Below are positions 14,190-52,099 of a stretch of DNA of 64,000 bases, in pieces. A program made the position numbers and the translations under genes. The DNA is from Paenibacillus kyungheensis (lineage in GTDB: Bacteria; Bacillota; Bacilli; Paenibacillales; Paenibacillaceae). The stretch is from NCBI RefSeq assembly GCF_028606985.1, contig NZ_CP117416.1:2580001-2644000 (forward strand). Direction: 5' to 3'. Every line of letters begins with the position of its first letter. Within the stretch, counting starts at the first letter, position 1. Under the pieces are notes generated by a model. It did no database searches. It saw nothing but the letters and a program-made list of their open reading frames with translations, and was not told where the DNA came from.

Positions 14190-14195
14190 ATGCAT

Positions 14196-27400: not shown

Positions 27401-30400
27401 GATGGCGATCGGTCCAATGAATCCGCTTGCAGGCGAAGTCGCCGATCAGATTGCGAAGTTTACTGGCTCCGAACGTGTCGCCTTTTTTAATTCTGGAACG
27501 GAAGCGGTCATGGTTGCACTTCGATTGGCACGAGCTGTCACAGGTAGATCGAAAGTTGTATTGTTTGAAGGCGCGTTTCATGGAACATTCGACGGTGTGC
27601 TGGCGAGACGACATACAGCTGAACCGGATGGACGTTCAGCGCCTATGGCTCCAGGTATTACCGATCATCTCGTAGGAGATGTGGTTGTGCTGAAATATGG
27701 TGATCCGCAAGCACTAGAGATAATCAACCGTCTTGCTGGAGAACTGGCAGCCGTACTCGTTGAACCTGTACAGAGCCGTCGTCCAGACTTGCAACCACAA
27801 TCGTTTTTGCACGAACTGCGTAAGATAACAGAGAATCATGGCGCGGCGCTCATTTTCGATGAGGTCATTACAGGGTTCCGGATCGGGCAGGGCGGTGCTC
27901 AAGAATGGTTCGACGTCCGTGCAGACATTGCCACTTACGGAAAAGTTATCGGCGCGGGCATGCCTGTCGGTGTCGTTGCAGGCAAAGCAAGGTTTCTAAA
28001 CGCAATCGATGGGGGTTGGTGGGAGTATGGAGATGCTTCTTACCCGACCAGTGACGGTAATCGTACGCTAGTCGGAGGGACGTTCTGTCACCATCCATTG
28101 ACAATGGCTTCAATTCTGGCCATGCTTACCCATTTGCGAACAGAAGGGCCAATGCTTCAGAAACGGCTAAATGAGCGAACTGAACGATTGGTCAGCAAAT
28201 TGAATCGTTATTTCTCAGAGCGGCAATTACCGATTTCGATGGTTCATTTTGGTTCCCTCTTCCGGTTTGTATTGCAAGGAGATTTGGAGTTATTGTTCTA
28301 TCATTTGCTTGAGAAAGGAATCTATGTATGGGAAGGACGAAACTGCTTTTTATCGACAGCACACACGGATGAGGATATCGACAAGATTATCCATGCCGTA
28401 ATAGAAAGCGTAGAAGAAATGCAGGCCGGTGGTTTTTTTTCGGAGAAGCGTGAAGAAAAAGCATCCATTACCAGAGCTGAACGCAACAAATATTATCCGA
28501 TATCGTCCGCACAAAGACGACAATATGCTTTGCAACAAATTGATCCTGCAAGTACTGCTTACCATTTGACATCTTCCTTTATGTTAAAAGGTCCAATGGA
28601 TCGACAAATGATGGAAAAAGCTCTGCAACGACTTGCTAATCGCCATGAGTCACTTCGAACTTCATTTGCATTTGTAGAAGGTGAGGTTGTGCAAATTGTT
28701 CATGAAGATGTGCGACTACCATTAGTTTCAGTGCAATCAGACGATCTGCTCGCTAGCGAACGTTTCAGTCAACCATTCGATCTCGGTCAAGCTCCATTAC
28801 TGCGGGTGCATTTGCGAGAAGAATCTCCCGAAAAACATGTCATTGAATTTAACATGCATCACATTGTTACAGACGGAATTTCGATGGACATTTTGTTCCG
28901 CGATCTAGCTGCTCTTTATCAAGAACAAGATTATATTCTTCCCAAGCTGGAGATTCATTACAAAGACTATGCTAAATGGGAACTCGAACAGTTCAGTTCT
29001 GATGCGATGCAGCAGCATGAGTCCTACTGGCTTGAACAGTTCACAGAGGAACCACCCAAGTTACAGTTGCCAACCGATTACCCGCATCCAGCCGTCAAAA
29101 GCTTTGAAGGGGGGAGTCTCTCGTTCGTAGTCGATGAATCGTTGCGACAGGATTTGAACGTGTTGGCTCGAAAATCAGGGGCTACATTGTATATGGTTCT
29201 TCTGACTGCCTATCATCTTTTTCTTAGCAAATATACGAGTCAACAAGATATCGTTATAGGTTCTCCAGCAACTGGTCGTCCGGGCTTGGGGACAGAAAAT
29301 GTCATCGGCATGTTCGTTAATACGTTGGCATTACGCATTCGGTCGAACGGGAACCAAACGTTTTCAGAACTTTTACGACAGGTTAAAGCAAGTACCTTAG
29401 CTGCCGTGGAGCACCAGTCCTACCCTCTCGACCGTTTAATCGCTAAATTACCATTAGAACGGGATACGAGTCGCAATCCATTGTTTGACACTTTGTTGGT
29501 GTTTGACAAAGATATGAGTTCTAATTTTGCGCATACAATCAAAGACATAGAAATCGAACGAATTCGTCAAGAACTACAAACTGCGCAATTCGATCTTGCT
29601 CTTCATGCAGTGGAAGAAAGTCAGACGCTTCGTTTCACATTGGTGTATGCACGTAAATTGTTTGCAAAAGAAACAGCAGAAAGAATGCTGAAACATTTTG
29701 AAAGGATTGTCCAACAAGTCGTCCTTTATCCAATGTCTAAACTGAGCGAATTCGACCTTAGTACAGAGGAAGAACTTAAACAAATAAAAACCATTTTTAA
29801 CAATACGCAAGCCGAATACGACAAGGAAGCGACCCTGCCTCACCTGTTCGAGGAACAGACTGCGCGAACGCCAGACCAAACAGCCGCGGTGTTCAGCACC
29901 GGATCGTGGACGTACAGCGAGCTGAACAAGCGCGCGAATCAACTGGCCCGAACGCTACAAGCCAAAGCGGTGAAGCCAGATCAGTTGGTGGGGGTATTGC
30001 TGGAGCGATCCCCTGAAATGATGTTGGGTCTGCTCGCCATTTTGAAAGCCGGCGGGGCGTACGTGCCGATCGATCCCACCTATCCTAAGGAGCGAATCAG
30101 CTATATGCTGCAAGACAGTGGCGCTTCGCTACTGCTGACACGCGGAAAAGAGACCACCCTCGACGTGCCCTTCGAGGGAGAGGTGCTTGACTTGACCGAC
30201 GAGGCGCTGTACGCCAACGATGACACTGATTTACCTGGTGGAGCAGGGGCGAATGATATGGCCTATGTCATTTATACCTCCGGTTCAACCGGCGAACCCA
30301 AAGGAGTGATGATCGAGCATCAGGCGGTGATCAACCGGTTGCAGTGGATGCAAAAGCAGTTTCCGTTGACCACTCGCGACGTCATCTTGCAAAAAACACC

Positions 30401-33011
30401 GTTTAGCTTTGATGTCTCGGTGTGGGAGTTGTTCTGGTGGAGCTTGTCCGGCGCGTCGGTCGTGTTTGCCGAGCCAGGAGCCGAGAAAGATCCGGAAGCT
30501 CTTGCGCAAAGTGTCCATGAACACCAGGTGACCGTGATGCACTTCGTGCCTTCGATGCTTCAGCTGTTTTTGGAGCATGTGGAGGCAACCGGACAGGATA
30601 AGCTGCGCTCCTTACGCCGCGTCTTCGTCAGTGGAGAAACGCTGCAAGCGAGTCAAGCCAGTCGGTTCGGACGGTTGCTCAAAGACAGATGGGGAACAGA
30701 ACTGATCAATTTGTATGGCCCGACGGAGGCGACCGTCGATGTGTCGTACCATGAATGCTCGTGTGAAGATCATGTCACGCACATTCCGATTGGGCAACCG
30801 ATCGACAACATGTCCCTGTATATTTTGGACCGCGAAGGACGGGTGCAACCGGTGGGGGTACCCGGCGAGTTGTACATCGGGGGCGTGGGTCTAGCCCGCG
30901 GGTATTGGAACCGTCCGGAGCTCACCGAGGAGCGGTTTACGACGCAGAAAGCCGTACCAGGGATACGGTTGTACCGGACCGGGGATATCGGGAAGTGGCT
31001 ATCGAACGGGGAAATGGCCTACGGGGGACGGATCGACCATCAGGTCAAAATTCGAGGAAACCGTATTGAGCTAGGGGAAATTGAGACACAGTTATTACGG
31101 CATCCTCAGATTCAGGAAGCGGTGGTGACGGTACACGAAGCCGAAGCAGGGCGGAAGGAACTGAGCGCGTATTACGTCTCGGAAGGGGTGCTGGGAATCG
31201 GGGCGATTCAAGCGTATGTGGGCGAGCGGTTGCCCGCTTACATGGTACCCACCTATGGGAGACAACTGGAGGCGATGCCGCTAACGGCGAACGGGAAGCT
31301 GGATCGGAAGCGTCTACCGGCTCCTCAGAGGCAAGCGGAGCAGAGGAGATATGTCGCTCCACGCAACGAGGTCGAGGAGCAGCTGGTAAGCGTCTGGCAG
31401 GAGGTGCTCGGGGTCGAACGAATTGGCATTGATGAGCATTTCTTTCATATGGGAGGCGACTCAATCAAAGCAATTCAGATTAGCGCCAAGCTCATGTCTA
31501 CTGGTCTTGTTATGCAGGTCAAAGAGTTGTTTGAAAAACCAACGATTCGATCCATATCACCGCTGATTAGACAACAGGTTCATAATAGAGATCAAGGATC
31601 TGTTGAAGGAGCAGTTATATTAACGCCTATTCAACATTGGTTTTTCGATAAGCACTCATCTGATCTACAACACTTCAATCAATCTTTGTTAATGCGAGCT
31701 GCTCACATGTTGGATGCCGAACTAGTGAAAAAGGTCATTGCCAAGCTGGTGGAGCACCATGACGCTTTGCGTCTGGTATTTGAAGAGTCAGAGGGAAAAT
31801 GGATTTCGTTTAATCGGGGTCTTAGCGATAAGCCGAATTTCGAATTTCAAGTTCATAATTATCGTGATCTTCCACAAGTCAACATGGCGAGCCAGATCGA
31901 AGAAGAAGCAGCAAAGTATCAGGCTTCTATTCATCTAAACGAAGGCCCATTATGTAAAGTTGTTTTGTTCCAGACCGCTGATAAAGATTATTTACTTTTT
32001 ATCATTCATCATTTGGCGGTAGACGGCTTATCTTGGCGCATATTGCTGGAAGATTTCCAAACTAGTTATGCACAGTTGTGCCAAAACAAGACGATTCAAT
32101 TGCCAGATAAGACAGATTCTTATTTGTTGTGGGCCAATCGATTGCAAAACTATGCGAATATGCCAAACAAAATGCATGAAAGTTTTGAATATTGGAAAGG
32201 TTTTGCATCACACCCGGTCGACTCTTTACCCGTCGATCGCTCGGTCACAGGTCGGTGTGAAGCAAGGATGCAGTCTAAGACGCTGAATTTTCCCGAACCG
32301 TTCACAGAACTTTTGTTGACGACGGCACATCGTGCTTATCATACAGAAACGAATGACTTATTGTTGGCTGCCCTTGGATTGACTATACATGAATGGGCAG
32401 GACTGGAACACATATGGATTCAGCTTGAAGGACACGGTCGCGAGTCAATTATGCCAGAAATCAACATTAACCGGACTGTAGGATGGTTTACCTCCCTGTT
32501 TCCTGTACTGCTATCTTCGCATAGTCCGTCCGGCAACTTGTCCGATATTATAAAATCGGTGAAAGAGAGCATTAGAGGCATTCCGGACAAAGGGCTAAGT
32601 TATGGAATGTTGCGATATCTTACCGATCAAAATTTACCTGAGATTGAGCCCGAGATTTGTTTTAATTACTTAGGCCAGTTCGACCAAAGACAATCGTCGG
32701 ACGTGTTGATCTTGTCAGAGCTTCCTATCGGTCGTGTAGTGAGTCCAAATATAGAATGCCCTTTCAAAATCGATATTAACGGCATCGTCAAAGACGGACA
32801 ACTTATACTAACCTTCCGATTTGATCGTGAGGAGTTTTTAGAATCCACGATTCAGCGCTTTATAAGTACTTATGAAAGACACCTTAACTGTCTTGTTTCT
32901 CACTGTGTCGACAAGCCAGATTTGGATTTTACACCAAGTGATTTCAGCGCGGCCGGACTAGACATGGAAGATTTAGACGATGTGTTTAGAGCGATAGAAG
33001 AGAAATTTTAA
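24456..33011 (+). CDS. Hybrid PKS/NRPS, KS-ACP-aminotransferase-C-A(Ser)-PCP-E
   Basis: This 2851-residue protein elongates the chain, converts the beta-keto group to a beta-amine in-line, and couples it to serine, which is then epimerised. A helical docking segment leads into the KS (C212, H345, H385). The ACP serine is S702 (FFELGLDSI). After a coiled-coil-like linker comes a class III PLP aminotransferase with NSGTEA at 1012-1017, D1135 and the Schiff-base K1163 (TYGKVIGAG), as in iturin/mycosubtilin ItuA/MycA. The C domain has HHIVTDG at 1468-1474. The A domain has A3 from Y1940 and a serine code (D-V-W-H-F-S-L-V-D). The PCP is S2336. The E domain has HHLAVDG from 2518 and NRTVGWFT. No AT and no KR are present, which fits the need for a ketone at the transaminase. 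The C-terminal helix is donor-like, and the next protein starts with a matching C domain. Confidence 0.95.
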   Translation: MKDTISLIFEQIAAGKIERNTGVELLKQMKKDHSTVSDEMAIIGVAVKLPQISGLDQLWNHLKHGVNSIGEFPTSRRADTDRYLSYMDQWTPNTTYLPGAYLDEIDKFDYKFFRLTPREAGLMSPAQRLFLETAWETFEEAGYGGDKLSGSRTGVYIGYGSDSLFEYVRFIQDVEPSALSMSVPGNLSPIVASRISHLLDLRGPALAIDTSCSSSLVALHEACQAIRNGECDQALVGGIRINYMRLSNQINMGIQASDGRTRTFDDSSEGTGSGEGVITVLIKPVRKAISDGDHIHAIIKGSSINQDGNSLGLTAPNVRAQEEVILQAWKAAGIDPQTISYIEAHGTGTKLGDPIEIEAIRQAFLRHTSKKQFCGVGSVKSNFGHLDNAAGLLGLVKTILALKHHEIPATLHFQSANRQISFEDSPVYVVDRLTPWQTSDHPRRAGVSSFGLSGTNCHVVLEEAPALILSELENLEGYLLPLSAKTMQALRTTVEQYLTQLRENPSWSLADICYTAGTCRGHYAYRLAIHAYDLQEMQIKLDRLIKEWPSNDCTTEGVFYGEKDSTRQPEDVALVTAVFEKLNQLSESDDKTERLDMLMELGYLYTKFTDIPWDVLYQGEHRQKLSLPTYPFERTRCWISITPRQHQAKEQTISMNIALDKGSSAHRKLIFEFVMQTLEDISGIPQQEIQDEVNFFELGLDSILLFQVSEKIKDRYTLELSLSRFYDELSTPKALIDHLATHIPQESEVSTLNLQTAQAAQTPTRNDEPTQDDLPTSDLTSMQPSGQRSELKDLFSKQLDIISRQLDLLHEDQHVTTSGSHNSSSDELGRAAQTNIVLKEGTELPLTTSSELSRAFPKTGKQEAEVFMPYRKLNLSTAKNLSDKQARHTEALIGRLSERFKVTKEFTQKYRAVLANNRNVAGFRPAWKEIIFQVIAKQAQGARIWDIDDHEYIDISMGFGAYLLGHAPTFITDTIRTELEKGMAIGPMNPLAGEVADQIAKFTGSERVAFFNSGTEAVMVALRLARAVTGRSKVVLFEGAFHGTFDGVLARRHTAEPDGRSAPMAPGITDHLVGDVVVLKYGDPQALEIINRLAGELAAVLVEPVQSRRPDLQPQSFLHELRKITENHGAALIFDEVITGFRIGQGGAQEWFDVRADIATYGKVIGAGMPVGVVAGKARFLNAIDGGWWEYGDASYPTSDGNRTLVGGTFCHHPLTMASILAMLTHLRTEGPMLQKRLNERTERLVSKLNRYFSERQLPISMVHFGSLFRFVLQGDLELLFYHLLEKGIYVWEGRNCFLSTAHTDEDIDKIIHAVIESVEEMQAGGFFSEKREEKASITRAERNKYYPISSAQRRQYALQQIDPASTAYHLTSSFMLKGPMDRQMMEKALQRLANRHESLRTSFAFVEGEVVQIVHEDVRLPLVSVQSDDLLASERFSQPFDLGQAPLLRVHLREESPEKHVIEFNMHHIVTDGISMDILFRDLAALYQEQDYILPKLEIHYKDYAKWELEQFSSDAMQQHESYWLEQFTEEPPKLQLPTDYPHPAVKSFEGGSLSFVVDESLRQDLNVLARKSGATLYMVLLTAYHLFLSKYTSQQDIVIGSPATGRPGLGTENVIGMFVNTLALRIRSNGNQTFSELLRQVKASTLAAVEHQSYPLDRLIAKLPLERDTSRNPLFDTLLVFDKDMSSNFAHTIKDIEIERIRQELQTAQFDLALHAVEESQTLRFTLVYARKLFAKETAERMLKHFERIVQQVVLYPMSKLSEFDLSTEEELKQIKTIFNNTQAEYDKEATLPHLFEEQTARTPDQTAAVFSTGSWTYSELNKRANQLARTLQAKAVKPDQLVGVLLERSPEMMLGLLAILKAGGAYVPIDPTYPKERISYMLQDSGASLLLTRGKETTLDVPFEGEVLDLTDEALYANDDTDLPGGAGANDMAYVIYTSGSTGEPKGVMIEHQAVINRLQWMQKQFPLTTRDVILQKTPFSFDVSVWELFWWSLSGASVVFAEPGAEKDPEALAQSVHEHQVTVMHFVPSMLQLFLEHVEATGQDKLRSLRRVFVSGETLQASQASRFGRLLKDRWGTELINLYGPTEATVDVSYHECSCEDHVTHIPIGQPIDNMSLYILDREGRVQPVGVPGELYIGGVGLARGYWNRPELTEERFTTQKAVPGIRLYRTGDIGKWLSNGEMAYGGRIDHQVKIRGNRIELGEIETQLLRHPQIQEAVVTVHEAEAGRKELSAYYVSEGVLGIGAIQAYVGERLPAYMVPTYGRQLEAMPLTANGKLDRKRLPAPQRQAEQRRYVAPRNEVEEQLVSVWQEVLGVERIGIDEHFFHMGGDSIKAIQISAKLMSTGLVMQVKELFEKPTIRSISPLIRQQVHNRDQGSVEGAVILTPIQHWFFDKHSSDLQHFNQSLLMRAAHMLDAELVKKVIAKLVEHHDALRLVFEESEGKWISFNRGLSDKPNFEFQVHNYRDLPQVNMASQIEEEAAKYQASIHLNEGPLCKVVLFQTADKDYLLFIIHHLAVDGLSWRILLEDFQTSYAQLCQNKTIQLPDKTDSYLLWANRLQNYANMPNKMHESFEYWKGFASHPVDSLPVDRSVTGRCEARMQSKTLNFPEPFTELLLTTAHRAYHTETNDLLLAALGLTIHEWAGLEHIWIQLEGHGRESIMPEININRTVGWFTSLFPVLLSSHSPSGNLSDIIKSVKESIRGIPDKGLSYGMLRYLTDQNLPEIEPEICFNYLGQFDQRQSSDVLILSELPIGRVVSPNIECPFKIDINGIVKDGQLILTFRFDREEFLESTIQRFISTYERHLNCLVSHCVDKPDLDFTPSDFSAAGLDMEDLDDVFRAIEEKF
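29815..31440 (+). other. GC-rich island covering the serine A domain
   Basis: Base composition jumps at the C-A border. My hand counts per 60-base line are 20 G+C in 29761-29820, 35 in 29821-29880, 38 in 30421-30480, 33 in 31381-31440 and 24 in 31501-31560. The rich block coincides with the A domain up to the PCP core, which suggests a recombinational A-domain replacement. Confidence 0.7.
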
Positions 33012-33060: not shown

Positions 33061-36000
33061 ATGAACATTAAGAAAGAAAACATCAAGAACATGTACCCCC
33101 TATCCCCAATGCAGGAAGGGATACTGTTCCACACTTCACTTGACTCAAAAACAAATGCTTATTTTCAGCAATTTGAAATCAAGATTGAGGGAAAGCTAGA
33201 CATTGCTTTGTTCCAGAAAAGCTTTGAATGGTTGGTTGAAAGGCACGATGTGCTACGTACGACATTCGTCTATGAAAAGGTAAAGCGCCCGCTACAGGTC
33301 GTTTTCAAAAGTTGGCCGAAAGAATTAAAAGTTATCGATCTTTGTAGCGTACCCGAAGCAGATAAAGAAATCCAAATCCAGAAAGTGAAACAAGAAGATT
33401 TGGAAAATCGTTTTGATTTGTCTCAAGATCATTTAATTCGCATTACGGTATTGCGTATACATCCTGAGCAGTATTCGATTTTTATTTCGTACCATCACAT
33501 TCTGATGGATGGCTGGTGTATTGGCATACTATCGCGAGAGTTGTTTGCCGCTTACGAGGCTTTGAGGCACGATCGAGAAATAAACTTGGATGAGCCTTAT
33601 CCGTTCCATGGATATATCAGCTGGCTAGATCAGCAAGATATGACGGAAGCAACATCGTTCTGGAGCGAATATGTTGAAGGTTATGACACAACTGCGATCG
33701 TTCCACAGCAGCGATCGTCTCAACAGCAACGTTACTTGTTGAAAGAACATCGATTCACGCTAGACGCGACCCAAACGAATCAGTTAAATGATAGGGTTCG
33801 AAGATACGGAGTTACGCTCAGTACATGGATACAAACGGTTTGGGGGATTTTGCTCCAGAAGTATAATCAGACGGAAGATGTTGTTTTTGGTGCTGTCGTT
33901 TCGGGTCGTCCGGCTGAACTACCCGGCATTGAACGAACAGTTGGATTGTTTATCAACACAGTACCTATTCGAATTCGTTGTGATGAGAAAGCTTCTTTTG
34001 AGGAGGTGTTGCTTCACGTTCATCGTTCATCCATTGCGATGAAACCACACGAGCATTTCCCTCTTCATAAGACGCAACAATTAAGCGAGCTAAAGCAACA
34101 GTTGATTCAACACATTGTTTTATTTCAAAATTTTCCGGTTAGTGAAATTGCTAAAACAACAGCAGATGTCGATTTCCGTGTTTCTGAAGTTCATTTGTTC
34201 GAGCAGACCAATTACGATTTTGAGCTTATTGTTGAGCCAGGAGATGCTCTAGGGTTCATGATCAGATACAATGAAGCTGTATACGAGACAATGTTCATCG
34301 AATGTGTTGCACAACACATTATTCAAATGATCGGTACAGTACTGGAAATGCCTGCTTGCCCATTAAAAGATCTGCAACTGCTTTCTCCAGAGCAAATGGA
34401 TCATATTCTTATTGATTTCAATCGTACGCAACAACCACTTGTGGATAATGTACTCATTCACCAAGTATTTGAACAACAGGCAGCACGAACTCCTAACGAT
34501 ATCGCGTTAGAAGGCCGAAATCGTATAAGCTTTGGAGAGCTGAATAAAAAAGCAAATCAGCTTGCCCGACGCTTACGTCAGGAAGGAGTGGCTCCGGGTG
34601 TGCTTGTTGGACTACTGATCGACGCTACAGAAGAACTTGTCATTGGGTTACTTGCTATTTTGAAGGCAGGAGGGGCATACGTGCCGTTGGATCCACAGTT
34701 TCCGCCCGATCGTATTGCCTATATGCTTGCAGACAGCGGAGCAAAATTGCTTTTGACCCAAAGCGAACATTCGGTGAACACCACTACTCAGGCGAAAGTT
34801 ATCGAAGTTGATCGCCAAGAATATGATGATGAAGATGGAGACAATTTGCTACCTTTGCAGCAAGAAAGCGATCTGGCTTATGTTATCTATACTTCTGGTT
34901 CAACCGGACAGCCAAAAGGTGTCATGGTGACCCATCGTAATGTCATCAACTTTTTTGTAGGCATGGATGAGCGGATTCAGCCTGACAGTAACGATGTGCT
35001 ACTTGCGGTGACAACTATCTCGTTTGACATTTCTGTATTGGAAATGGTATGGACGCTAACTCGCGGAATTTCAGTCGTATTGCATGAAAAAACAGGGCTA
35101 CAATTCGAACACTTTGATCGTTACACAGCTGATGATTACGATAAAGGTGTAGAATTTAGTCTCTTTTTCTTTTCTAGTTACGACAACAATGATCAAGAGC
35201 ACACAAACAAATATCAATTGTTACTGGACACAGCAAAGTATGCGGATCAGAACGGATTTTCCGCTGTGTGGACTCCAGAGCGACATTTCCATCAATTTGG
35301 AGGCTTGTATCCAAATCCTTCCGTAACATCGGCTGCACTGGCTATGGTCACTGAACGTCTTCAATTGCGTTCAGGAAGCGTGGTCACTCCGTTACACCAG
35401 TCGCTTCGGATTGCGGAGGAGTGGGCTGTTGTCGACAATCTTTCGGGAGGAAGAGTAGGGCTCTCTTTCACATCTGGCTGGCATCCGGATGATTTTGTGT
35501 TAAATCCGGCGTTATATGCGAATCGGCACGAGGCGATGTTTCGCAAGGTAGACGAAGTGAAGCGCCTGTGGAGCAGGGAAAGCATATCGATGCCTAACGG
35601 ACTCGGCAAGGATATTGATGTTCGAGTGTATCCGGAGCCGGTTCAATCCGAACTTCCGATATGGATTACGACGTCAGGTAGCCATGATACGATTATTGAG
35701 GCTGGACGAATTGGAGCTAATCTTTTGACTCACTTGCTTGGTCAAGATGTCGACAGCCTGGCTGAAAATATTGCCCTCTATCGCAAAACATTAGTCGAGC
35801 ATGGTTTTTCTCCCGATCATGGCAAAGTATCATTAATGATTCATACTTATATTGGCGAAGACATGGAATCGGTAAAACAACGGGTCAAAGAACCTTTTTG
35901 CAACTATTTACGTTCAAGCTTGCATCTGATTCGCAATTTGGCAGATGCGCTAAATATGAATACGGAAGAACTACAGACTGAAGAAGCAATGAGCACGTTG

Positions 36001-38727
36001 CTGGATTATGGCTTTGATCGGTATTGGCAAACAGCCTCACTGATGGGTACACGCGAAAGCTGTAAGGAGATAGTGTATCGATTGCAGCATGTGGGCGTAG
36101 ATGAAATTGCATGTCTTATCGATTTCGGATTAAGTTACGATCTGGTCATGGATGGATTGGAGAAGCTGAGCGAGTTGTGTCAGTGGTTTCAGAAGTCGTC
36201 CGATTCTTTAGAGCAACAGAACAATCGCCAAATAACGATGTTTCAATGTACGCCTTCCCGATTAAGATCACTAATCAAGGATCCACATTCACAATCTTTT
36301 TTGCGCTCGCTTCGTACAATACTGGTCGGTGGAGAACCGTTTCCCGCCGATTTGGCAAAAAGTGTGAAAAGCGTGACGAATGCCCGTATTCTCAATATGT
36401 ATGGACCAACGGAAACAACCATTTGGTCCGCAACGTATGAAGTTTCAGAGCCATCTCAATCTATATGTATCGGCTTGCCTATTACAAATACACAAATGTA
36501 TTTGTTGGATTCACATGAAAGACCTGTTCCGATCGGAGTCGTCGGTGAGTTGTACATTGGTGGTGAAGGGGTATCGAACGGATATTGGGAACGTCCCGAA
36601 TTGACTACAGAGCGATTTGTGTTGAACAAGTTTACCGGTAAGGGAAAGATGTACCGGACAGGCGATATTGGCCGTTATTTTCCAGATGGCAACATCGAAC
36701 TACTCGGGCGACGTGACGACCAGTTTAAGGTGCGCGGTTACCGTATAGAAGCCGGCGAAATTGAAGCGGTTCTACTGCGTCATGGCAGTGTTAGGGAAGC
36801 AATCGTTATGCTAGAGGATGAAGGATCAGATGATAAAACTCTTGTCGCTTACGTCATATGGAAACAAGCAGGGAACGAAACAGAGCTTCGTACGTATATA
36901 GGCAACTTACTTCCATACTATATGTTACCAGGGAGATATGTTGCTTTGGCGAACATTCCGCTTACTCCTAATGGCAAAGTGGATCGCAAAGCACTTGTTG
37001 TTCTCGGGCAAGCATCGGTTAGCTCTACTCGGTTCGTTGAGCCAACAAGTGACATCGAAATAGTTATGGCCCAGATATGGCGTCAAGTGCTCGGCTTGGA
37101 GAATATAGGTGTACACGACAACTTTTTCAGACTGGGAGGCGATTCGATTAGTGCGCTTCAGATCTCATCTCAGCTGTTGAAATACAACTACAGAATGGAC
37201 ATGAAACATTTGTTCCAGCATCCTACAATTGCCGAATTAAGTCGACTCGTTCGCACGGAAGAAGTCAAAAAGCATGACAACGGTATAGTAGAAGGTTCTG
37301 TTGTGTTGACGCCAATCCAACATTGGTTTTTGGAACAAGAATTATCGGATGCTCATCATTATAACCATGCTGTCGTTCTTCGTGCTGCAAATCGATTTGA
37401 TGCTACTATCGTGCAGCGCGTGTTAGAACAATTAGCAAAGCATCATGATGCTTTGCGTATTGTTTTTCGGCAGGACAGCAGTGACGGTTCAACAATAGCT
37501 TTTAACCGTCCGCCAGAAGCGAACTTCATCGAGCTACACGTAACGGATTTGTGCGGTGATCCTCAATACATGAAAAAGGCAGAAGCGGAATTTGCGCTGC
37601 GACAATCGACACTGAATCTGGAGAATGGGCCGCTGTTCCGAGCGGTATTGATACACACAGATGAGGGAGATCATCTACTGCTCGTCATTCATCATCTCGT
37701 AGTCGATGGAGTCTCATGGAGAGTGTTACTTGAGGATTTCGCTAGTGGATACCGACAAACGTTGCAAGGAGAAGATATTCATTTTCAGAATAAAACAGAT
37801 TCATTCCAGAAGTATGCGAGAAGTCTTATCGATTATATGCAAAGCGAAGCGTTAATGGCTGAAAAGAATTACTGGAAGCAATTAGAAGATTATTCGTTCC
37901 AACCGCTACCACGATCTAGAGCCGTGACGAATCGACCGACAACGAGCACGAATTGCGTCGTGCATTTGACACTTTCAACACAGCATACGCAACAATTAAT
38001 GCAAGAAGTTCATCATGCTTACAATACAGAAATTAATGATATTTTGCTTACTGCATTAGGGTATTCGGTTAAAGAATGGATCGAGTCTCCATATGTACTA
38101 TTCGATTTAGAAGGACATGGTCGTGAGTCATTCGTTGAAAATTTAGACGTTACGCGAACTGTAGGCTGGTTTACTTCTATTTATCCGGTAGCGCTGGATA
38201 TGTCAAGTTCCGATCGTTTATCTGACCAGCTCAAAAAGGTAAAGGAAAGCTTACGAGGAATTCCTAGTAAAGGGTTAGGGTATGGTGTGCTGAAATATTT
38301 GACCCCTGCCGAAAAAAAACAAGAAATGAACTTCAACGTGCAGCCGGAAATCATGTTCAATTATCTCGGGCAATTCGACCAAAGCGTTCCAGAGGACTTA
38401 TTCGACCTATCACCATTGTCGACGGGACCGATGTTGTCGCCCCACTCGGAACGGAAATACGCTCTTCTAATCAACGGCATAGTGCGAAACAACTCGTTAC
38501 AACTTTCTTTTGACTACAGTAGCGAAGAGTTCGTAGCATCTGAAATCGAATGGTTTGCAGATCTGTATCATCGTCATTTGATACAAATTATTCATCACTG
38601 TGTGGGAAAAAATCAGACGGAATTGACGCCTAACGATTTGTTATATCAAGATTTCACGCTTGAAGAGTTGGACGAGCTTCGCGAGGAAATTACGGCATCC
38701 GTCATAGAAATGGGAGAAGAGGATTAG
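33061..38727 (+). CDS. NRPS module C-A(Gly, embedded luciferase-like monooxygenase)-PCP-E
   Basis: The protein has 1888 residues. The C domain starts with YPLSPMQEGILFH, as in TycB-like domains that accept D-residues, and has HHILMDG at 145-151. The A domain has A3 from Y610 and A4 (SFDISVLEM) at 654-662, then is interrupted by ~345 residues of a luciferase-like flavin monooxygenase (~697-1040) before A5 (MYGPTETT) near 1113. The pocket reads D-I-L-Q-L-G-M-I-W-K, which is glycine. The PCP serine is S1362. The E domain has HHLVVDG at 1544-1550, EGHGRE, a TRTVGWFTS motif and a NYLGQFD segment. Myxothiazol MtaG also combines a glycine A domain with an inserted monooxygenase and forms a terminal amide via alpha-hydroxyglycine. 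Here an epimerase follows, which makes sense only if the glycine carbon has become stereogenic. Oxidation and the fate of the residue are inference. Confidence 0.95.
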   Translation: MNIKKENIKNMYPLSPMQEGILFHTSLDSKTNAYFQQFEIKIEGKLDIALFQKSFEWLVERHDVLRTTFVYEKVKRPLQVVFKSWPKELKVIDLCSVPEADKEIQIQKVKQEDLENRFDLSQDHLIRITVLRIHPEQYSIFISYHHILMDGWCIGILSRELFAAYEALRHDREINLDEPYPFHGYISWLDQQDMTEATSFWSEYVEGYDTTAIVPQQRSSQQQRYLLKEHRFTLDATQTNQLNDRVRRYGVTLSTWIQTVWGILLQKYNQTEDVVFGAVVSGRPAELPGIERTVGLFINTVPIRIRCDEKASFEEVLLHVHRSSIAMKPHEHFPLHKTQQLSELKQQLIQHIVLFQNFPVSEIAKTTADVDFRVSEVHLFEQTNYDFELIVEPGDALGFMIRYNEAVYETMFIECVAQHIIQMIGTVLEMPACPLKDLQLLSPEQMDHILIDFNRTQQPLVDNVLIHQVFEQQAARTPNDIALEGRNRISFGELNKKANQLARRLRQEGVAPGVLVGLLIDATEELVIGLLAILKAGGAYVPLDPQFPPDRIAYMLADSGAKLLLTQSEHSVNTTTQAKVIEVDRQEYDDEDGDNLLPLQQESDLAYVIYTSGSTGQPKGVMVTHRNVINFFVGMDERIQPDSNDVLLAVTTISFDISVLEMVWTLTRGISVVLHEKTGLQFEHFDRYTADDYDKGVEFSLFFFSSYDNNDQEHTNKYQLLLDTAKYADQNGFSAVWTPERHFHQFGGLYPNPSVTSAALAMVTERLQLRSGSVVTPLHQSLRIAEEWAVVDNLSGGRVGLSFTSGWHPDDFVLNPALYANRHEAMFRKVDEVKRLWSRESISMPNGLGKDIDVRVYPEPVQSELPIWITTSGSHDTIIEAGRIGANLLTHLLGQDVDSLAENIALYRKTLVEHGFSPDHGKVSLMIHTYIGEDMESVKQRVKEPFCNYLRSSLHLIRNLADALNMNTEELQTEEAMSTLLDYGFDRYWQTASLMGTRESCKEIVYRLQHVGVDEIACLIDFGLSYDLVMDGLEKLSELCQWFQKSSDSLEQQNNRQITMFQCTPSRLRSLIKDPHSQSFLRSLRTILVGGEPFPADLAKSVKSVTNARILNMYGPTETTIWSATYEVSEPSQSICIGLPITNTQMYLLDSHERPVPIGVVGELYIGGEGVSNGYWERPELTTERFVLNKFTGKGKMYRTGDIGRYFPDGNIELLGRRDDQFKVRGYRIEAGEIEAVLLRHGSVREAIVMLEDEGSDDKTLVAYVIWKQAGNETELRTYIGNLLPYYMLPGRYVALANIPLTPNGKVDRKALVVLGQASVSSTRFVEPTSDIEIVMAQIWRQVLGLENIGVHDNFFRLGGDSISALQISSQLLKYNYRMDMKHLFQHPTIAELSRLVRTEEVKKHDNGIVEGSVVLTPIQHWFLEQELSDAHHYNHAVVLRAANRFDATIVQRVLEQLAKHHDALRIVFRQDSSDGSTIAFNRPPEANFIELHVTDLCGDPQYMKKAEAEFALRQSTLNLENGPLFRAVLIHTDEGDHLLLVIHHLVVDGVSWRVLLEDFASGYRQTLQGEDIHFQNKTDSFQKYARSLIDYMQSEALMAEKNYWKQLEDYSFQPLPRSRAVTNRPTTSTNCVVHLTLSTQHTQQLMQEVHHAYNTEINDILLTALGYSVKEWIESPYVLFDLEGHGRESFVENLDVTRTVGWFTSIYPVALDMSSSDRLSDQLKKVKESLRGIPSKGLGYGVLKYLTPAEKKQEMNFNVQPEIMFNYLGQFDQSVPEDLFDLSPLSTGPMLSPHSERKYALLINGIVRNNSLQLSFDYSSEEFVASEIEWFADLYHRHLIQIIHHCVGKNQTELTPNDLLYQDFTLEELDELREEITASVIEMGEED
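35149..36180 (+). other. Luciferase-like monooxygenase (MupA/TIGR04020-type) inserted in an A domain
   Basis: Residues ~697-1040 begin with EFSLFFFSSYDNN and contain the flavin-monooxygenase signatures FSAVWTPERHFHQFGG, SGGRVGLSFTSGWHPDDF and WITTSGSHDTI. Adenylation sequence resumes directly afterwards in frame, so this is an in-frame insertion between motifs A4 and A5, not a gene fusion at an end. Such domains use reduced flavin and oxygen; here the carrier-bound or adenylated glycine is the likely substrate. Confidence 0.9.
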
Positions 38728-38729: not shown

Positions 38730-41700
38730 ATGTCGAAAAAAATAGAAATCCAAAATGTATATTCGCTTTCCTCTATGCAAGAGGGCATGCTGTTTCACTC
38801 GTTGGTCCATAAGGAAAGTGGCGAGTACGTGCTACAGGCGGAGTTCGACATACACGGATCGATAAATGTAGAGACGTTTCGGAAAAGCCTTCGAATTCTT
38901 GCTAATCGTTATGATATTTTGCGTAGCATTTTTAACTACAAAAAAGCGAGCCGTCCACTGCAAATCGTATTAAAAGAGAGGTCGATTTCTGTTCAGGTAG
39001 AAGATCTTTGCCATCTGGAAGAAGTAGAAAAAACTCAGCAGTTGCAGGTATTCAAACGTGCTGATTTGATTCGCAGTTTTGATTTAACAAAAGATATGTT
39101 GATTCGAACCGCAATCATTCGTACGGAAGAAGATCGATGCAAGCTAATGTTAACATATCACCACATCCTGATGGATGGATGGTGTCTCGGAATTTTATTT
39201 AACGAGTTAACACAAATCTATGACAGTTTGAAAAACAATACAGATCTTCATCTACCTTACGTATATCCTTACTGGATGTATATCAAGTGGGTGGAAGAGC
39301 AAAATAAAGAACAGGCAGAACGTTACTGGGAGCAGTTGCTTGCGGGCTATGAGCAATCAGCTTTGCTACCCCAAGCAGAGGTTCGGCATGATCATGTTCA
39401 ATATCAGTTCCAAAAATATACGTTTAGCTTCGATTTATCTACGACACGGGAATTGACAATGCTGGCGCAACACTCGCAAGTGACGCTATATACGGTCATG
39501 CAGACATTATGGGGCGTTCTGTTGCAAAGGTATAACAATACGACAGACGTTGTATTTGGAGCTGTCGTCTCAGGACGTCCGGCGGATTTGGTGGGCTCAG
39601 AACGAATGGTGGGCTTATTTATTAATACTGTTCCCGTGCGTATTCGTAGGGAAGACAAAGAATCTTTCGCTGAATTGGTTACGAAGGTTCAGTTGCAAAT
39701 GACCGAGGGGAGCCCGTACGAGTATTTCCCGTTGCACAGCATACAAGCGAATACGATGCTAAAGCAAAATTTATTTCAGCATATCATTGTCTATGAAAAT
39801 TATCCTATTCAGCGAGAATTAAGTAGTTCCAACACTACAATAGACGAGCTAGGTTTTGCTGTGAATAATTTTGAAATGCGTGAGCAGACTAATTACGATC
39901 TGAATATCATTTTCGTGCCGGGAGAACTGATGACCGTGACAATGACTTATAACGCTGAAGTCTATTCCAAGGCAGGTGTTCAAGCGATTGAGTCACATTT
40001 AAGTCAGCTGGTTCGCTCCGTGCTGGACAACCCGTCTGCCGAGTTGTCCGATTTGGAAGTGATCACCGTGGCTGAGCGAAAAGCGCAGTTACCTTTCCAC
40101 CACCTTGCGGTCTACCCTGAGCAAGTGACATTATCCGAGCTGTTCGAACAGCAAGTGCAGCGAACCCCCGACACGATTGCCGTTGTCTATGAAGGGGAAA
40201 GCATAACCTACCGTGATCTTAATGCTCGAGCGAACCAACTTGCATATGTACTTCACAGCAAAGGAGCAAAGCCGGACAAATTTGTAGCGTTACTTTTCAG
40301 CCGCTCTATCGATATGATTGTGGCGATCCTTGCCACTTTAAAAGCAGGGAGCGCTTACGTACCCATAGATCCAGCATATCCGGAACAGCGGATACGTTAT
40401 ATGTTGGAGGATAGTCAAGCGGTTTTGTTGCTGGTAGATCCGGAACATCGTCAAGCGGCGTCCTGTTTCGAAGGAACCATCATTCAAATGAATGATCCGG
40501 AGATTACATCTGCTGCGGATTCCGATAGACGGCAAGAAGCAACCGCACAGAATTTGGCTTATGTTATATATACTTCTGGCACGACAGGTATGCCTAAAGG
40601 AGTCATGATTGAGCATCGCAACGTTGTGAGTCTGTTTTTCCATGAAGGCTGTTTATTTGATTTTGGGGCAGACGACGTTTGGACGATGTTTCATTCCTAT
40701 TGCTTCGACTTCTCTGTCTGGGAAATGTATGGGGCGCTTTTGCACGGTAGCAAACTCGTCATTGTACCGGATCAAATCGTCCGTGATCCACAAGGATTTC
40801 TGGAGTTATTACAACAAGAACAGGTGACGATTTTGAACCAGACACCAACGATGTTCTATCACATTATACAAGCGGATGAGAAGCTGTCCAATTTCGATCT
40901 TCGGCTCAGAATAGTTATTTTTGGCGGAGAAGCGCTTGCTCCTTATCAGCTTAAAGGATGGAAAAGAAGGCATCCTCAAATACGTCTGATCAATATGTAT
41001 GGTATTACTGAGACAACCGTACACGTAACCTTTAACGAAATTACGGATGCCGATATTGAGCGTAACTTAAGTAATATTGGATCACCGCTTCCGACGCTGA
41101 GGCTATACATTTTGGATGAGGGTTTGAATCTGCTTCCGCAAGGCGCGCCAGGGGAAATATACGTAGGAGGCGAAGGCGTTGCACGTGGTTATTTGAATCG
41201 GCTTGAGTGGACGAACGAGCGATTTATCTCAAATCCTTATGCCCCCGGCGATATTCTGTATAAGACGGGAGATTTGGGTAAATGGCACCACAATTGGCAA
41301 ATGGAGTATCTAGGACGTGCCGATCAACAGATTAAAGTGCGGGGTTACCGAATTGAAGTAGATGAAATCGAATTTTGTTTGCTCCAGCATGATGCTATAC
41401 AAGAAGTGGTAGTACTAAGCAAAAAAGGCGCCGGAGGCACGGTCGTTCTTTGTTCGTATATCAAGGCAAATCGGACACTCCAATTAGAGGAAATTAGGGG
41501 TTATATCGGGGATAAATTGCCATCGTATATGGTTCCTTCGTTTTTTTATCAGGTGAATACTATTCCTTTGACGACAAATGGAAAAGTTGATCGGCAGGCA
41601 TTATTAGCTTTAGAACATGCAATGGGTACTTCAATAGAGCAAAAGACGGCAGCAACGGATGAGGTTGAGCGGGAACTGTTTGCGATGTGGAAACAGGTGT

Positions 41701-42500
41701 TAGGAGTCGAGCATTTTGGGATACACGATCACTTTTTTGATGTCGGCGGCAATTCTATCCTGCTCATACAAGTTCACAATTTAATAGACAATCGTTATCC
41801 AGGGAAAATGACGATTGCCGATTTATTCACATATTCCACCATTTCCAAACAGAAAGAACTAATTTACCAAACAAGCCGTTCGGAATCATCATCGGTGAAC
41901 ATACAAGGACTGGTACTGCCTTCGAGCTACTATGCAGAGAATGATGAACGAAGAGAAGCTACTCATTACCGCTTCTCTTTGTCAGATGTTCTGTACAATC
42001 AACTTATGTCGATTTCTCGACAGGAGCAAGTGACGATTGTTGAATTGATGCAAGGATTGTTCGTATACGTCCTTTCCGAATTGCTAGAAACTCAAAACAT
42101 ATCGTTACAAATTCTGATGGAAAAAGGTATTTTGCAAATCGGGATTGACTTCCAGTCTGTATCAGATTTTTCAGAGCTGTTCCGTAAAATATCGGATCAG
42201 AAACAGCCTCAGAGCGAGCTTTACAATTACTCGCACCTTAATCAATCTAGACAACAAGCACTTCCAGAAACTGTATATCCAGTGTTCGCTCAATCGACTA
42301 AAGACGACCGTCTTTTGAATTTGACGGACTACTTTGATTTCGGGCTAGAGTGGAGAACTGGTGACAAAGGGGCAGAGTTTATCTTTCACATGGATCATCG
42401 CCGTCTGGATAAAGAAAAAATGCGATCTATATATTCCAAATATGTTGCTTTCCTCAAAGTGTTTGCTGAAAATCAGAAAGCTGTCGTTCGCAAATCCTAA
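38730..42500 (+). CDS. NRPS module C-A(Thr)-PCP with half-condensation tail
   Basis: A 1256-residue single module starting 2 bp after the previous stop. The C domain opens with YSLSSMQEGMLFH and has HHILMDG at 144-150, which suits acceptance from the upstream epimerase. The A domain has A3 from Y614 (YTSGTTGMPKG), and its pocket reads D-F-W-N-I-G-M-V-H-K, the classical threonine code. A5 is MYGITETT instead of the usual MYGPTETT. The PCP serine is S1009. Residues ~1060-1256 are a truncated condensation-like tail resembling that of the Ser NRPS upstream. It is the last synthetase before the accessory enzymes, yet has no thioesterase or reductase, so release must use another protein or chain transfer to a partner encoded elsewhere. 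Confidence 0.94.
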   Translation: MSKKIEIQNVYSLSSMQEGMLFHSLVHKESGEYVLQAEFDIHGSINVETFRKSLRILANRYDILRSIFNYKKASRPLQIVLKERSISVQVEDLCHLEEVEKTQQLQVFKRADLIRSFDLTKDMLIRTAIIRTEEDRCKLMLTYHHILMDGWCLGILFNELTQIYDSLKNNTDLHLPYVYPYWMYIKWVEEQNKEQAERYWEQLLAGYEQSALLPQAEVRHDHVQYQFQKYTFSFDLSTTRELTMLAQHSQVTLYTVMQTLWGVLLQRYNNTTDVVFGAVVSGRPADLVGSERMVGLFINTVPVRIRREDKESFAELVTKVQLQMTEGSPYEYFPLHSIQANTMLKQNLFQHIIVYENYPIQRELSSSNTTIDELGFAVNNFEMREQTNYDLNIIFVPGELMTVTMTYNAEVYSKAGVQAIESHLSQLVRSVLDNPSAELSDLEVITVAERKAQLPFHHLAVYPEQVTLSELFEQQVQRTPDTIAVVYEGESITYRDLNARANQLAYVLHSKGAKPDKFVALLFSRSIDMIVAILATLKAGSAYVPIDPAYPEQRIRYMLEDSQAVLLLVDPEHRQAASCFEGTIIQMNDPEITSAADSDRRQEATAQNLAYVIYTSGTTGMPKGVMIEHRNVVSLFFHEGCLFDFGADDVWTMFHSYCFDFSVWEMYGALLHGSKLVIVPDQIVRDPQGFLELLQQEQVTILNQTPTMFYHIIQADEKLSNFDLRLRIVIFGGEALAPYQLKGWKRRHPQIRLINMYGITETTVHVTFNEITDADIERNLSNIGSPLPTLRLYILDEGLNLLPQGAPGEIYVGGEGVARGYLNRLEWTNERFISNPYAPGDILYKTGDLGKWHHNWQMEYLGRADQQIKVRGYRIEVDEIEFCLLQHDAIQEVVVLSKKGAGGTVVLCSYIKANRTLQLEEIRGYIGDKLPSYMVPSFFYQVNTIPLTTNGKVDRQALLALEHAMGTSIEQKTAATDEVERELFAMWKQVLGVEHFGIHDHFFDVGGNSILLIQVHNLIDNRYPGKMTIADLFTYSTISKQKELIYQTSRSESSSVNIQGLVLPSSYYAENDERREATHYRFSLSDVLYNQLMSISRQEQVTIVELMQGLFVYVLSELLETQNISLQILMEKGILQIGIDFQSVSDFSELFRKISDQKQPQSELYNYSHLNQSRQQALPETVYPVFAQSTKDDRLLNLTDYFDFGLEWRTGDKGAEFIFHMDHRRLDKEKMRSIYSKYVAFLKVFAENQKAVVRKS
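41910..42497 (+). other. Half-condensation-like tail after the threonine PCP
   Basis: About 195 residues resemble the C-terminal lobe of a condensation domain (a helix like LYNQLMSISRQEQVTIVELM and a final FHMDHRRLDKEKMRSI segment) without an HHxxxDG motif. It ends the synthetase. Its resemblance to the tail at 20,072-20,611 suggests a shared docking or release function. Confidence 0.5.
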
Positions 42501-42526: not shown

Positions 42527-43387
42527 ATGCAAAAAATTGGAGTCATCGGTGCGGGAACGATGGGAATTGGACTTTCACAGTCGCTGGCCCAAGCTGGCTT
42601 AGATGTCGTTCTTGTTGATATTGCAGATCATATTCTTGCTCATTCCAAGAAAGAAATTCAAAAAAATATACGCTTCTCGACTCTTTTTAAAAAAGACCCT
42701 TCGTTGGAAAGTGTAAAGACTGTACTTGGAAGAATTACTTTTACTACAGATTATCATTTACTGAGCGATATCGATTTTCTTGTCGAGAACGTGACCGAAA
42801 AATATGAAACAAAACGTGCACTTTACAAAATGATTGATCCCATTTGTTCTCCAGAATGTGTGTTTGCTATTAATACGTCTTGTATCTCGATAACTAAGCT
42901 CGCAGCTGAGACAAAACGTCCGGATCGGGTGATTGGAATGCATTTCATGAATCCGATTACAATGAAGCAAACCATTGAAGCGATTCGGGGATTTCACACT
43001 TCAGACGAGACTATCGAAAACGCTAAAGCTTTTCTTGCCCGATTTGATAAGAATATGATTCTCGTCAATGATCTACCGGGATTTGTTTCGAACCGCATTT
43101 CCCATCTATTCATGAATGAAGCCGCATTTGTGGTACAGGATCAAGTGGCCGAGCCGAAAGATGTCGATGATATTTTCAAGCAGTGCTTTAATCATGCAAT
43201 GGGCCCGTTGGAAACTGCCGATCTTATCGGTCTCGATACAGTTGTAGATTCACTTGATGTGCTTTACGAAAGTTACCAGGATCCGAAGTATCGCGTTTGT
43301 CCACTGCTACGTAAAATGGTTGAAGCTGGTCTACACGGCCGCAAGAGCGGTCACGGTTTTTACGATTACTCGAACGAGCTGAGTTAA
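42527..43387 (+). CDS. 3-hydroxyacyl-CoA/ACP dehydrogenase, FkbK-like
   Basis: 286 residues with an N-terminal NAD-binding GAGTMGIG loop, INTSCISIT and HFMNP motifs, and the C-terminal helical domain of the 3-hydroxyacyl-CoA dehydrogenase family. In methoxymalonyl- and hydroxymalonyl-ACP pathways, FkbK-type members oxidise a glyceryl-ACP hydroxyl; ZmaG-type members also act on seryl-ACP to give aminomalonate. Its neighbour is an FkbI-like acyl dehydrogenase, which makes that role more likely than fatty-acid degradation. The FkbH-type loader and the dedicated ACP are absent from the window and could lie upstream. ATG start preceded by a GGTGGTG site. Confidence 0.85.
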   Translation: MQKIGVIGAGTMGIGLSQSLAQAGLDVVLVDIADHILAHSKKEIQKNIRFSTLFKKDPSLESVKTVLGRITFTTDYHLLSDIDFLVENVTEKYETKRALYKMIDPICSPECVFAINTSCISITKLAAETKRPDRVIGMHFMNPITMKQTIEAIRGFHTSDETIENAKAFLARFDKNMILVNDLPGFVSNRISHLFMNEAAFVVQDQVAEPKDVDDIFKQCFNHAMGPLETADLIGLDTVVDSLDVLYESYQDPKYRVCPLLRKMVEAGLHGRKSGHGFYDYSNELS

Positions 43388-43426
43388 CAGAATACTTTAT
43401 CTTATTTTAGAAAGGTGTACTTCTAC

Positions 43427-44575
43427 ATGCGATTTGGGCTAAGTAAAAAGCAAGAACAGTTTCAAGAAGAATGTCGTTTGTTTGTCGATCGTGAAGTCAT
43501 GCCACTGGCTAACCAAATGGATCGGCAGGAAAATACTTCCGAAGAATTGATCGCGAGAGTAGCAGAGCAGGGATATCTAGGAGCAGTGGTTCCCAGTATA
43601 TACGGCGGAAGTGAACTTGATTACATGAGTCTCGGACTGATGCATGAACAAATCGGTCGCGGATGCTCTTCTATACGTAGCTTGCTAACCGTTCACGGCA
43701 TGGTGACATTGGCTATCCGCAAGTGGGGAACCGAGCAACAGAAGCAACAGTGGCTTCCTGATTTGGCTACGGGGAGTCTAATCGGTGCATTCGGTCTGAG
43801 CGAGCCCAATGCTGGTGCTGATGCGAAAAGCATCGAGACGACAGCAGAACTGGTAGATGGACGCTATATTCTTAATGGTCGAAAGAAATGGATTACCTAT
43901 GGTCAAATTGCCGATCTCTTTCTAATATTTGCATGCTATGAAGGACAGCCTACTGCTTTCTTGGTGGAGCGTAGCAGCAAAGGTTGCACGACTCATGCAA
44001 TTGAGGGCATTTTAGGAACAAGAGCTTCGATGCTTGCAGAGCTACACATGGAACATTGCGAAGTCCCCATGGAGAATAAGTTGGGGGGAATAGGGCTCGG
44101 GCTATCGTTTGTAGCCACTCACTGTCTAGATTACGGACGATTTTCTATTGCTTTCGGTGCAGTTGGCATTGGACAAGGATGTTTGAACGATAGTCTCGAA
44201 TATACATTAAAGCGCAAGCAGTTTGGCGTTGCTCTTCGTGAACATCAGCTGATTCAAAAAATGATCACTGAGATGACTGTCCATATTGAAGCGGCTCGGT
44301 TACTTTGTATGCAATTAGCTGATTTGGCCGATTCAGGAGATCCCGATTCTATAATTGCTGGCTGGAAAGCGAAGTATTTTGCAACGTCTATATTAGGTAA
44401 AATTACGAGCGATACGGTTCAAATTCAAGGAGCATACGGTTGTAGTATAGACAGTAACGCTCAACGGTATTTCCGTGATGCTAAAATTATGGAAATTATC
44501 GAAGGGACAACCCAAATGCATGAAATGATTATAGCTGCCAATGCCTATACGTCAAATGAATATGAGGTCAAATAA
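43427..44575 (+). CDS. Acyl-CoA/ACP dehydrogenase, FkbI-like
   Basis: 382 residues from the ATG at 43427; the upstream GTG (43415) overlaps the AAAGGTG ribosome site and is less likely. It shows family features: an RSLLTVHGM segment typical of FkbI/AsmI-type enzymes, FGLSEPNAGADA, the FAD-contact region KKWITYG, and IIEGTTQMHEM at the catalytic-loop position. In unusual-extender pathways this enzyme oxidises the aldehyde or hydroxyl stage on an ACP to yield hydroxy- or aminomalonyl-ACP. It lies 39 bp after the FkbK-like gene. General acyl-CoA dehydrogenation is the alternative, but the pairing and location argue for extender supply. Confidence 0.87.
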   Translation: MRFGLSKKQEQFQEECRLFVDREVMPLANQMDRQENTSEELIARVAEQGYLGAVVPSIYGGSELDYMSLGLMHEQIGRGCSSIRSLLTVHGMVTLAIRKWGTEQQKQQWLPDLATGSLIGAFGLSEPNAGADAKSIETTAELVDGRYILNGRKKWITYGQIADLFLIFACYEGQPTAFLVERSSKGCTTHAIEGILGTRASMLAELHMEHCEVPMENKLGGIGLGLSFVATHCLDYGRFSIAFGAVGIGQGCLNDSLEYTLKRKQFGVALREHQLIQKMITEMTVHIEAARLLCMQLADLADSGDPDSIIAGWKAKYFATSILGKITSDTVQIQGAYGCSIDSNAQRYFRDAKIMEIIEGTTQMHEMIIAANAYTSNEYEVK

Positions 44576-44577
44576 AT

Positions 44578-45279: not shown

Positions 45280-45297
45280 TCGCAAGGAGTGAGCAGA

Positions 45298-49086: not shown

Positions 49087-49156
49087 AGTAAGGCATATGC
49101 TGGCTTGGCGCAACAATCAACACCATTCTTGATTGATGGAAGGAGAAACAAGACAA

Positions 49157-52049: not shown

Positions 52050-52099
52050 ACAACCGGTATCGCAACAAAGAAAACAGGATGCGGAAATGAGGATTTTGT

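Follow-up and report, generated by a model that had tools for sequence, protein, structure and literature searches.

The module encoded at positions 33061–38727 of the window (the 64,000-nucleotide stretch of the 5.26-Mb Paenibacillus kyungheensis genome analysed here) ends in an epimerisation (E) domain, and the pocket of its adenylation (A) domain is of the glycine type. On glycine itself, an active epimerase would serve no purpose. The question raised by this locus is therefore on which substrate, if any, the E domain acts, and whether the monooxygenase embedded in the A domain could provide that substrate.

Architecture of the glycine module

The module is encoded on the forward strand by a single intact open reading frame (1888 amino acids) with a plausible ribosome-binding site (aaaggtggg) upstream. 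Pfam and NCBIfam profiles resolve it into the arrangement C-A(Gly)[LLM]-PCP-E, LLM being the embedded luciferase-like monooxygenase. The condensation (C) domain (residues 9–449, positions 33085–34407; Pfam Condensation) is followed by the N-terminal part of the A domain up to motif A4 (residues 460–690, 34438–35130), the LLM (residues 699–1039, 35155–36177), the C-terminal part of the A domain with A5 onward and the remaining glycine pocket (residues 1050–1312, 36208–36996), the peptidyl carrier protein (PCP; residues 1330–1400, 37048–37260) and the E domain (residues 1412–1880, 37294–38700). In Pfam, AMP-binding is matched at residues 470–680 (the better of two stretches), AMP-binding_C at 1233–1306 and PP-binding at 1337–1397, and a second Condensation-family stretch corresponds to the E domain; NCBIfam TIGR01720 is matched at residues 1720–1873. 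No thioesterase (TE) is matched by Pfam within the reading frame, where the PCP is instead followed by the E domain. In the C-domain tree, the C domain of the module groups with those located after an E domain (D-donor type), which agrees with the E domain at the end of the upstream Ser-type module. This KS-T-aminotransferase-C-A(Ser-type code)-T-E protein (24456–33011, forward strand) is the presumed donor to the glycine module.

Motif names and specificity codes are used here in their customary sense. In an alignment with the remaining A domains encoded in the cluster, the pocket reads DILQLGMIWK, the same glycine-type code that the preliminary description had given; the larger amino acid allowed for there was not indicated, either here or in the examined insert-bearing relatives. 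The position of the monooxygenase between A4 and A5, proposed in the same description, is borne out by alignment and Pfam coordinates: the insert is located after ISFDISVLE (A4) and before MFQCTPSRL (the residue-278 stretch) and NMYGPTE (A5). It matches Pfam Bac_luciferase at residues 703–1014 (E 7.6e-42) and TIGR04020 (MupA/Atu3671 LLM) over model positions 1–340 of 341 with 493.9 bits against a cut-off of 244.45. The closest solved structure by sequence is the PuwE monooxygenase domain (6ket, E 3.4e-118).

Among 140 LLM matches, 77 records contain an LLM embedded in an A domain, and all 77 carry the code DILQxGxxW, two of them lacking the last code position and one having an X at one position. 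They represent 67 distinct loci after removal of 10 re-fetched copies, identified by hand from the locus lists. Because the code is this uniform, the insert is tied to A domains with predicted glycine specificity, and a misread A code was rejected. Five further A-embedded LLMs from plasmids have DILQ codes in four cases and DMVQLGMVWK in one. Many of the A-embedded loci were collected with a query spanning the A-LLM junctions of the window itself, which favours like architecture; the profile searches of family and Bacilli genomes are free of this bias, and in these TIGR04020 scored above cut-off in 15 of 394 genomes of the window's own family and in 17 of 299 genomes of the Bacilli class sample. 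In the 15 other genomes of the same genus, no TIGR04020 match was found at E <= 1e-40.

A codes are predictions only, and the A domain might activate another small amino acid, which would make the E domain an ordinary one. The uniform glycine-type code of the insert-bearing domains renders this explanation extremely improbable, as does a sample of 30 E-domain loci gathered by the E domain itself and ranked by similarity rather than drawn at random: it comprises 25 non-LLM modules with a readable code, none of the glycine type (0/25), three LLM-Gly modules and two loci without a readable A domain.

The scanned proteins of the window's cluster include no flavin reductase, which counts against a hydroxylation of glycine by the LLM. 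On a plasmid of Streptomyces sp. NBC_01343, a flavin reductase gene comes directly after an NRPS gene with an A-embedded LLM (L301:4781–10575), a possible partner of the LLM that is absent near the window's cluster. In 47 loci, mostly of Rhodobacteraceae and Burkholderiales, the insert occurs in an orphan A(Gly)-LLM-A-T NRPS gene with an N-terminal stretch (e.g. L040:7883–12460 and L048:7814–12457), which is a formyltransferase in both loci tested.

The epimerisation domain and its link to the monooxygenase

As described before, the E domain looks intact. All seven motifs are present (PIQHWF, HHLVVDGVSW, NDILL, EGHGRE, RTVGWFTS, GLGYG and FNYLGQ), including HHxxxDG and EGHGRE, and alignment showed none of the loss of catalytic residues that the preliminary description had considered: both His1545 (37693–37695) and Glu1684 (38110–38112) are kept. 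Full-length matches were obtained to the E domains of GrsA (5isw, E 1.1e-125) and TycA (9bfd, E 6.3e-119).

In Bacilli, an E domain directly follows the carrier domain (T) in 7 of 15 LLM-Gly modules (the window, G273, G622, G526, G462, G496 and G486). The other eight are devoid of an E domain: the reading frame of five stops after A or T, two continue into a C domain, and an unassigned tail is present in the last. This sample was likewise ranked by similarity; six of the 26 LLM rows in the module survey (L232–L237) were second copies and were dropped by hand, and the 47 orphan loci, which end after T, entered it only as L037. The 58 rows with a plain glycine code, de-duplicated only in part and made up of the best matches to two query A domains plus neighbours from LLM clusters, are followed by E in 5 cases, by C in 26, by the end of the reading frame in 13 and by no match in 14. 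All five plain Gly modules with an E domain share their cluster with an LLM-Gly module (G526, G462, G496, L028 = G007, and G315), an LLM elsewhere in the cluster having been looked for in only part of the sampled plain-Gly clusters. A point against the link is that the E-bearing label needs two changes in the LLM tree, because L027, without E, nests among the E-bearing modules.

Chance co-occurrence of LLM and E was rejected, since the pairing recurs in the seven Bacilli modules, and the comparison with relatives as a whole supports a functional link between both domains. Of the earlier argument that the E domain makes sense only with a stereogenic alpha-carbon, this association in the relatives speaks in favour, whereas the hydroxylation and the inversion themselves are steps that we infer. 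Viral origin was dismissed, as viral contigs contained no close relative and no PHROG match was found.

A trans version of the pair was also considered. Stand-alone LLMs beside C-A-T-E modules in f36 genomes were rejected as such, since in the three loci with an E domain (L292, L293 and L295) the A code is not of the glycine type. On a plasmid of Streptomyces sp. NBC_01237 (L309:19558–27702), a plain Gly-T-E module is located downstream of an apparently stand-alone LLM gene, and its E domain keeps the catalytic His and Glu (NHLVVDG and EGHGRE); this may be an independent, trans version.

The seven LLM-linked E domains group together in a single clade, with moderate bootstrap/SH-aLRT support of 91/81 in the careful tree. 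In 94% of 200 bootstrap trees a branch sets these seven apart from all other rows, and the clade has an SH-aLRT of 91 in the wider tree. It spans the family of the window and a second one, to which Brevibacillus dissolubilis belongs, although the seven modules amount to only about three lineages. HHL[VL][VI]DG[VI]SW and EGHGRE are kept in all seven. A further signature of the clade is the His of HHYNH (His1436 in the window, 37366–37368), likewise found in 7/7; 32 of 33 other compared E domains have Gln instead (HxNQ), the sole exception being the E domain of the Thr-code module L291. The careful tree omitted eight long-branch E rows that are present in the wider tree, none of which carries the HHYNH His. 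G486 deviates in having SHTVGWFT, as opposed to RTVGWFT in the other six.

Could the E domain nevertheless be catalytically idle? It might serve as a scaffold which, together with its COM donor, positions the D-donor-type C domain of the following Thr protein, irrespective of whether glycine is hydroxylated. The C-terminal segment of the E domain (38608–38724, ELTPNDLLYQDFTLEELDEL...) resembles a COM donor, the next C domain is of the D-donor type, and COM domains are described as occurring together with E domains and as serving as scaffolds (PMC12402864). Moreover, plain Gly modules with dead E domains exist: the catalytic residues are lost in L028 (SRLVIDG, DGYGRS) and in the starter module of G315 (HQWAADH, VSDDRV). 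If the domain were a mere scaffold, catalytic loss would be expected in LLM modules as well, but there both motifs are kept without exception, which argues against pure scaffolding. In addition, the eight Bacilli LLM-Gly modules described above manage without any E domain, and the E domains that could be compared have low dN/dS ratios. Overall, an idle E domain is considered unlikely. A decayed E domain (28 bits, motifs lost) is also present at L024:3622–8079, in a starter module whose code is of the Gly rather than the Asn type.

The ratios were obtained from L146–L148 (g66, one genus), where a plain Gly module with E lies directly upstream of the LLM module. The LLM-linked E domains are under purifying selection (dN/dS 0.12–0.14), similar to the A and C neighbours of the same module (C 0.09–0.13, A halves 0.09–0.17, LLM 0.06–0.08). 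The plain-Gly E domains of these loci are likewise constrained (0.14–0.24). They keep His and Glu with differing flanks (DTLSL or DSLSL, EGHGRH) and are sister to the LLM-linked clade (94/87, careful tree). Judged by their motifs, plain-Gly E domains look dead in two of three lineages; since those of L146–L148 are mostly intact and constrained, the link between an E domain on a glycine module and an embedded LLM is not a strict one. Identity of L146–L148 with a spergualin cluster was considered and dropped, as the loci contain too many modules.

Transfer to the Thr module and proposed reaction sequence

The reading frame directly downstream (38730–42500, forward strand) encodes a C-A-T-X module according to Pfam and A-domain alignment, with the Thr-type code DFWNIGMVHK; the chain thus appears to continue to a Thr module, as the preliminary description had assumed. 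Its C domain (WIN_88664_C30) falls into a clade of 38 rows, 37 of which follow an E domain (SH-aLRT 96), and is therefore of the D-donor type. The same continuation is kept in the orthologous clusters G273 and G622, whose counterpart C domains are also located inside the post-E clade. In contrast, the C domains after the E-less LLM modules of L024, L026 and L028 belong to the post-T clade (L-donor type). The exception is L029, with a D-donor-type C domain on a long branch after an LLM module without E. Hence, the C domain following the LLM module is of the D-donor type in 3/3 placed cases with E and of the L-donor type in 3/4 without E; G486, G526, G462 and G496 stand outside the C tree, having no C match of sufficient length.

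The glycine module is part of a larger assembly line, the first genes of which are counted from about 29 kb before the window. The cluster includes a protein of starter-C, A (Asn-type code), T and E domains, followed by a fusion of a beta-lactamase-fold protein with an ABC transporter, an arrangement also known from zwittermicin and colibactin, prodrug systems of the acyl-D-Asn type. Within the window, and all on the forward strand, it continues with PKS/NRPS proteins (371–8380 and 8394–14147), a carbamoyltransferase (14190–15869), a GNAT protein (15817–16839), a C-A(Ser-type)-T-X protein (16856–20614) and a PKS (20671–24459). Downstream of the Thr module are a 3-hydroxyacyl-CoA dehydrogenase, an acyl-CoA dehydrogenase, a type II thioesterase and a beta-lactamase-fold protein (42527–46230, forward strand). 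The cluster also contains an FkbH-like gene and two separate AT genes; no AT was matched in the scanned parts of its PKS proteins.

Three NRPS proteins end in an unassigned segment (X) of about 190 amino acids after the last carrier (T-X ends; window 19991–20611 and 41907–42497, and L003:9693–10262). These segments are weakly alike (22–29% identity), one of them having a sub-threshold Condensation match (E 0.0028). One T-X protein is directly followed by a KS protein, another by one after an AT gene, which suggests that the segment could be a part for the hand-off from NRPS to PKS. From the T-X ends we infer a non-collinear order, with the Asn starter followed by Ser (16856–20614), PKS (20671–24459), aminotransferase/Ser, the glycine module, Thr and the remaining PKS/NRPS proteins. 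In this predicted order the glycine unit would be internal.

Several neighbouring features were recorded in addition. At the start of the cluster (L002:857–1690), a NusG/LoaP-type antiterminator domain is joined to a C-terminal PP-binding carrier domain. The C-terminal domain of the PKS protein at 8394–14147 is BtrH_N-like and may serve for release by acyl transfer. A set resembling that for C30 carotenoids lies at 49133–54754 (two flavoproteins of the amine-oxidase family, an aldehyde dehydrogenase and a glycosyltransferase of family 2), and an HTH, NB-ARC/NACHT, TPR protein of the STAND type is encoded at 58563–61214.

With respect to the chemistry, the module would load glycine, which the C domain would join to an upstream chain whose last residue is predicted as D-Ser. 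With reduced flavin and O2, the LLM would then hydroxylate the alpha carbon of carrier-bound glycine. Since a C domain precedes, the substrate is most likely peptidyl-glycine, giving a carbinolamide and not a free amino-alcohol. The product would be an N-acyl-alpha-hydroxyglycyl thioester with a new stereocentre, whose remaining alpha proton could be moved by the E domain, thereby inverting the centre or setting it to a D-like arrangement. Due to the priority O > N > C, this arrangement corresponds to (R). Finally, the C domain of the following protein, being of the D-donor type, would pass the alpha-hydroxyglycyl unit to the Thr module. This sequence of LLM, E and D-donor C, with a D-like, probably (R), unit handed on, is on balance the probable course. 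That a distinct E lineage has evolved for N-acyl-alpha-hydroxyglycine, so that a hydroxylase and an epimerase acting in cis place such a unit into a continuing chain, appears about evenly balanced. N-acyl-alpha-hydroxyglycine can break down to an amide and a glyoxylyl unit, which counts against a retained hydroxyl group.

Alternatively, the LLM might oxidise the nitrogen of glycine to N-hydroxyglycine or an oxime. An oxygenase acting on a glycine primer is said to be used in necroxime assembly (PMC7318616). That primer has a free amine, however, whereas the nitrogen would be acylated here on account of the preceding C domain; besides, N-hydroxyglycine has no stereocentre and no need for an E domain, so that N-oxidation is very improbable.

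In L029:8300–16232, L024:3622–23954 and L028:4082–17854, the LLM-Gly module is the first to come after the starter and the ClbP-like peptidase gene that belongs to it. Cleavage of the starter would there expose an N-terminal alpha-hydroxyglycine, which might lose ammonia to give a glyoxylyl aldehyde; a masked-aldehyde prodrug is thus possible in these loci.

Comparison with known systems

Monooxygenases embedded in glycine A domains have been described before, namely for myxothiazol, melithiazol, solanimycin and corallorazine-like clusters (PMC10204066, PMC11342130), and alpha-hydroxyglycine occurs in skyllamycin, maltacine and spergualin (PMC10204066).

The Gly-monooxygenase modules of myxothiazol and melithiazol are MtaG and MelG. 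Like the module of the window, they combine a glycine A domain with a flavin monooxygenase between A4 and A5, for which alpha-hydroxylation is proposed (PMC10204066). The earlier comparison with MtaG therefore stands with regard to the insert position, but not with regard to terminal amide release, for which MtaG and MelG have a terminating TE that frees glyoxylate (PMC11342130). Given the shared insert position and glycine A domain (PMC10204066, PMC11342130), the LLM of the window could likewise generate an alpha-hydroxyglycine whose carbinolamide breaks, the upstream chain leaving as a Ser amide. This outcome is improbable: the reading frame has no TE but an intact E domain, the next one encodes a Thr module with a C domain of the D-donor type, and G273 and G622 retain this continuation. 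Without a TE, and with E followed by C-A(Thr)-T-X, the module of the window is a variant of the MtaG type and not an MtaG orthologue.

Module 4 of SolF (solanimycin) is likewise a Gly module with a flavin monooxygenase, in which hydroxyglycine is retained and the chain continues (PMC10204066). In SolF, however, the monooxygenase is located between A8 and A9, and the available part of the article mentions no E domain; the C domains of SolF and SolG are placed in the dual epimerisation/condensation clade (PMC10204066). The corallorazine-like clusters of Serratia and Pseudomonas (38 pathways) share the monooxygenase inside a glycine A domain but differ in their proposed truncated linear products, again with no E domain mentioned in the part available (PMC11342130). 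Sky39 and EpcG of skyllamycin and epoxinnamide also hydroxylate the alpha carbon of glycine stereoselectively, and the (S)-hydroxyglycine is kept in the peptide (PMC9321520, PMC10204066). In contrast to the LLM of the window, which is embedded in an A domain, accompanied by an E domain and predicted to lead to a D-like unit, they are stand-alone enzymes. Since Sky39 gives (S), the module of the window is specifically predicted to invert (S) to (R).

The monooxygenase domain of PuwE is the closest solved relative of the LLM, and for it alpha-hydroxylation beside a carrier thioester is proposed; in the puwainaphycin synthetase it was assigned to the formation of the 2-hydroxy acyl chain (PMC4219810). 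It works within a PKS/NRPS hybrid on a beta-amino fatty acyl substrate, as opposed to glycine in the window. The E domains of GrsA and TycA, which act on Phe, have the same motifs as that of the window, but Gln in HxNQ instead of the His of the LLM-linked clade.

Among the matches listed for the open-licence literature, as far as their text was available, an E domain on a glycine module with embedded monooxygenase is not described. While the glycine module with embedded monooxygenase is already known, the E-bearing variant appears to be new. If the proposed sequence is true, no earlier description exists, within the limited literature searched, of an assembly line that reaches stereodefined alpha-hydroxyglycine through epimerisation. 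The known substrate range of E domains would be widened and a sequence rule provided for predicting alpha-hydroxyglycine units. For acyclic alpha-hydroxyglycine, which occurs in spergualin, handedness would become testable with one excised module.
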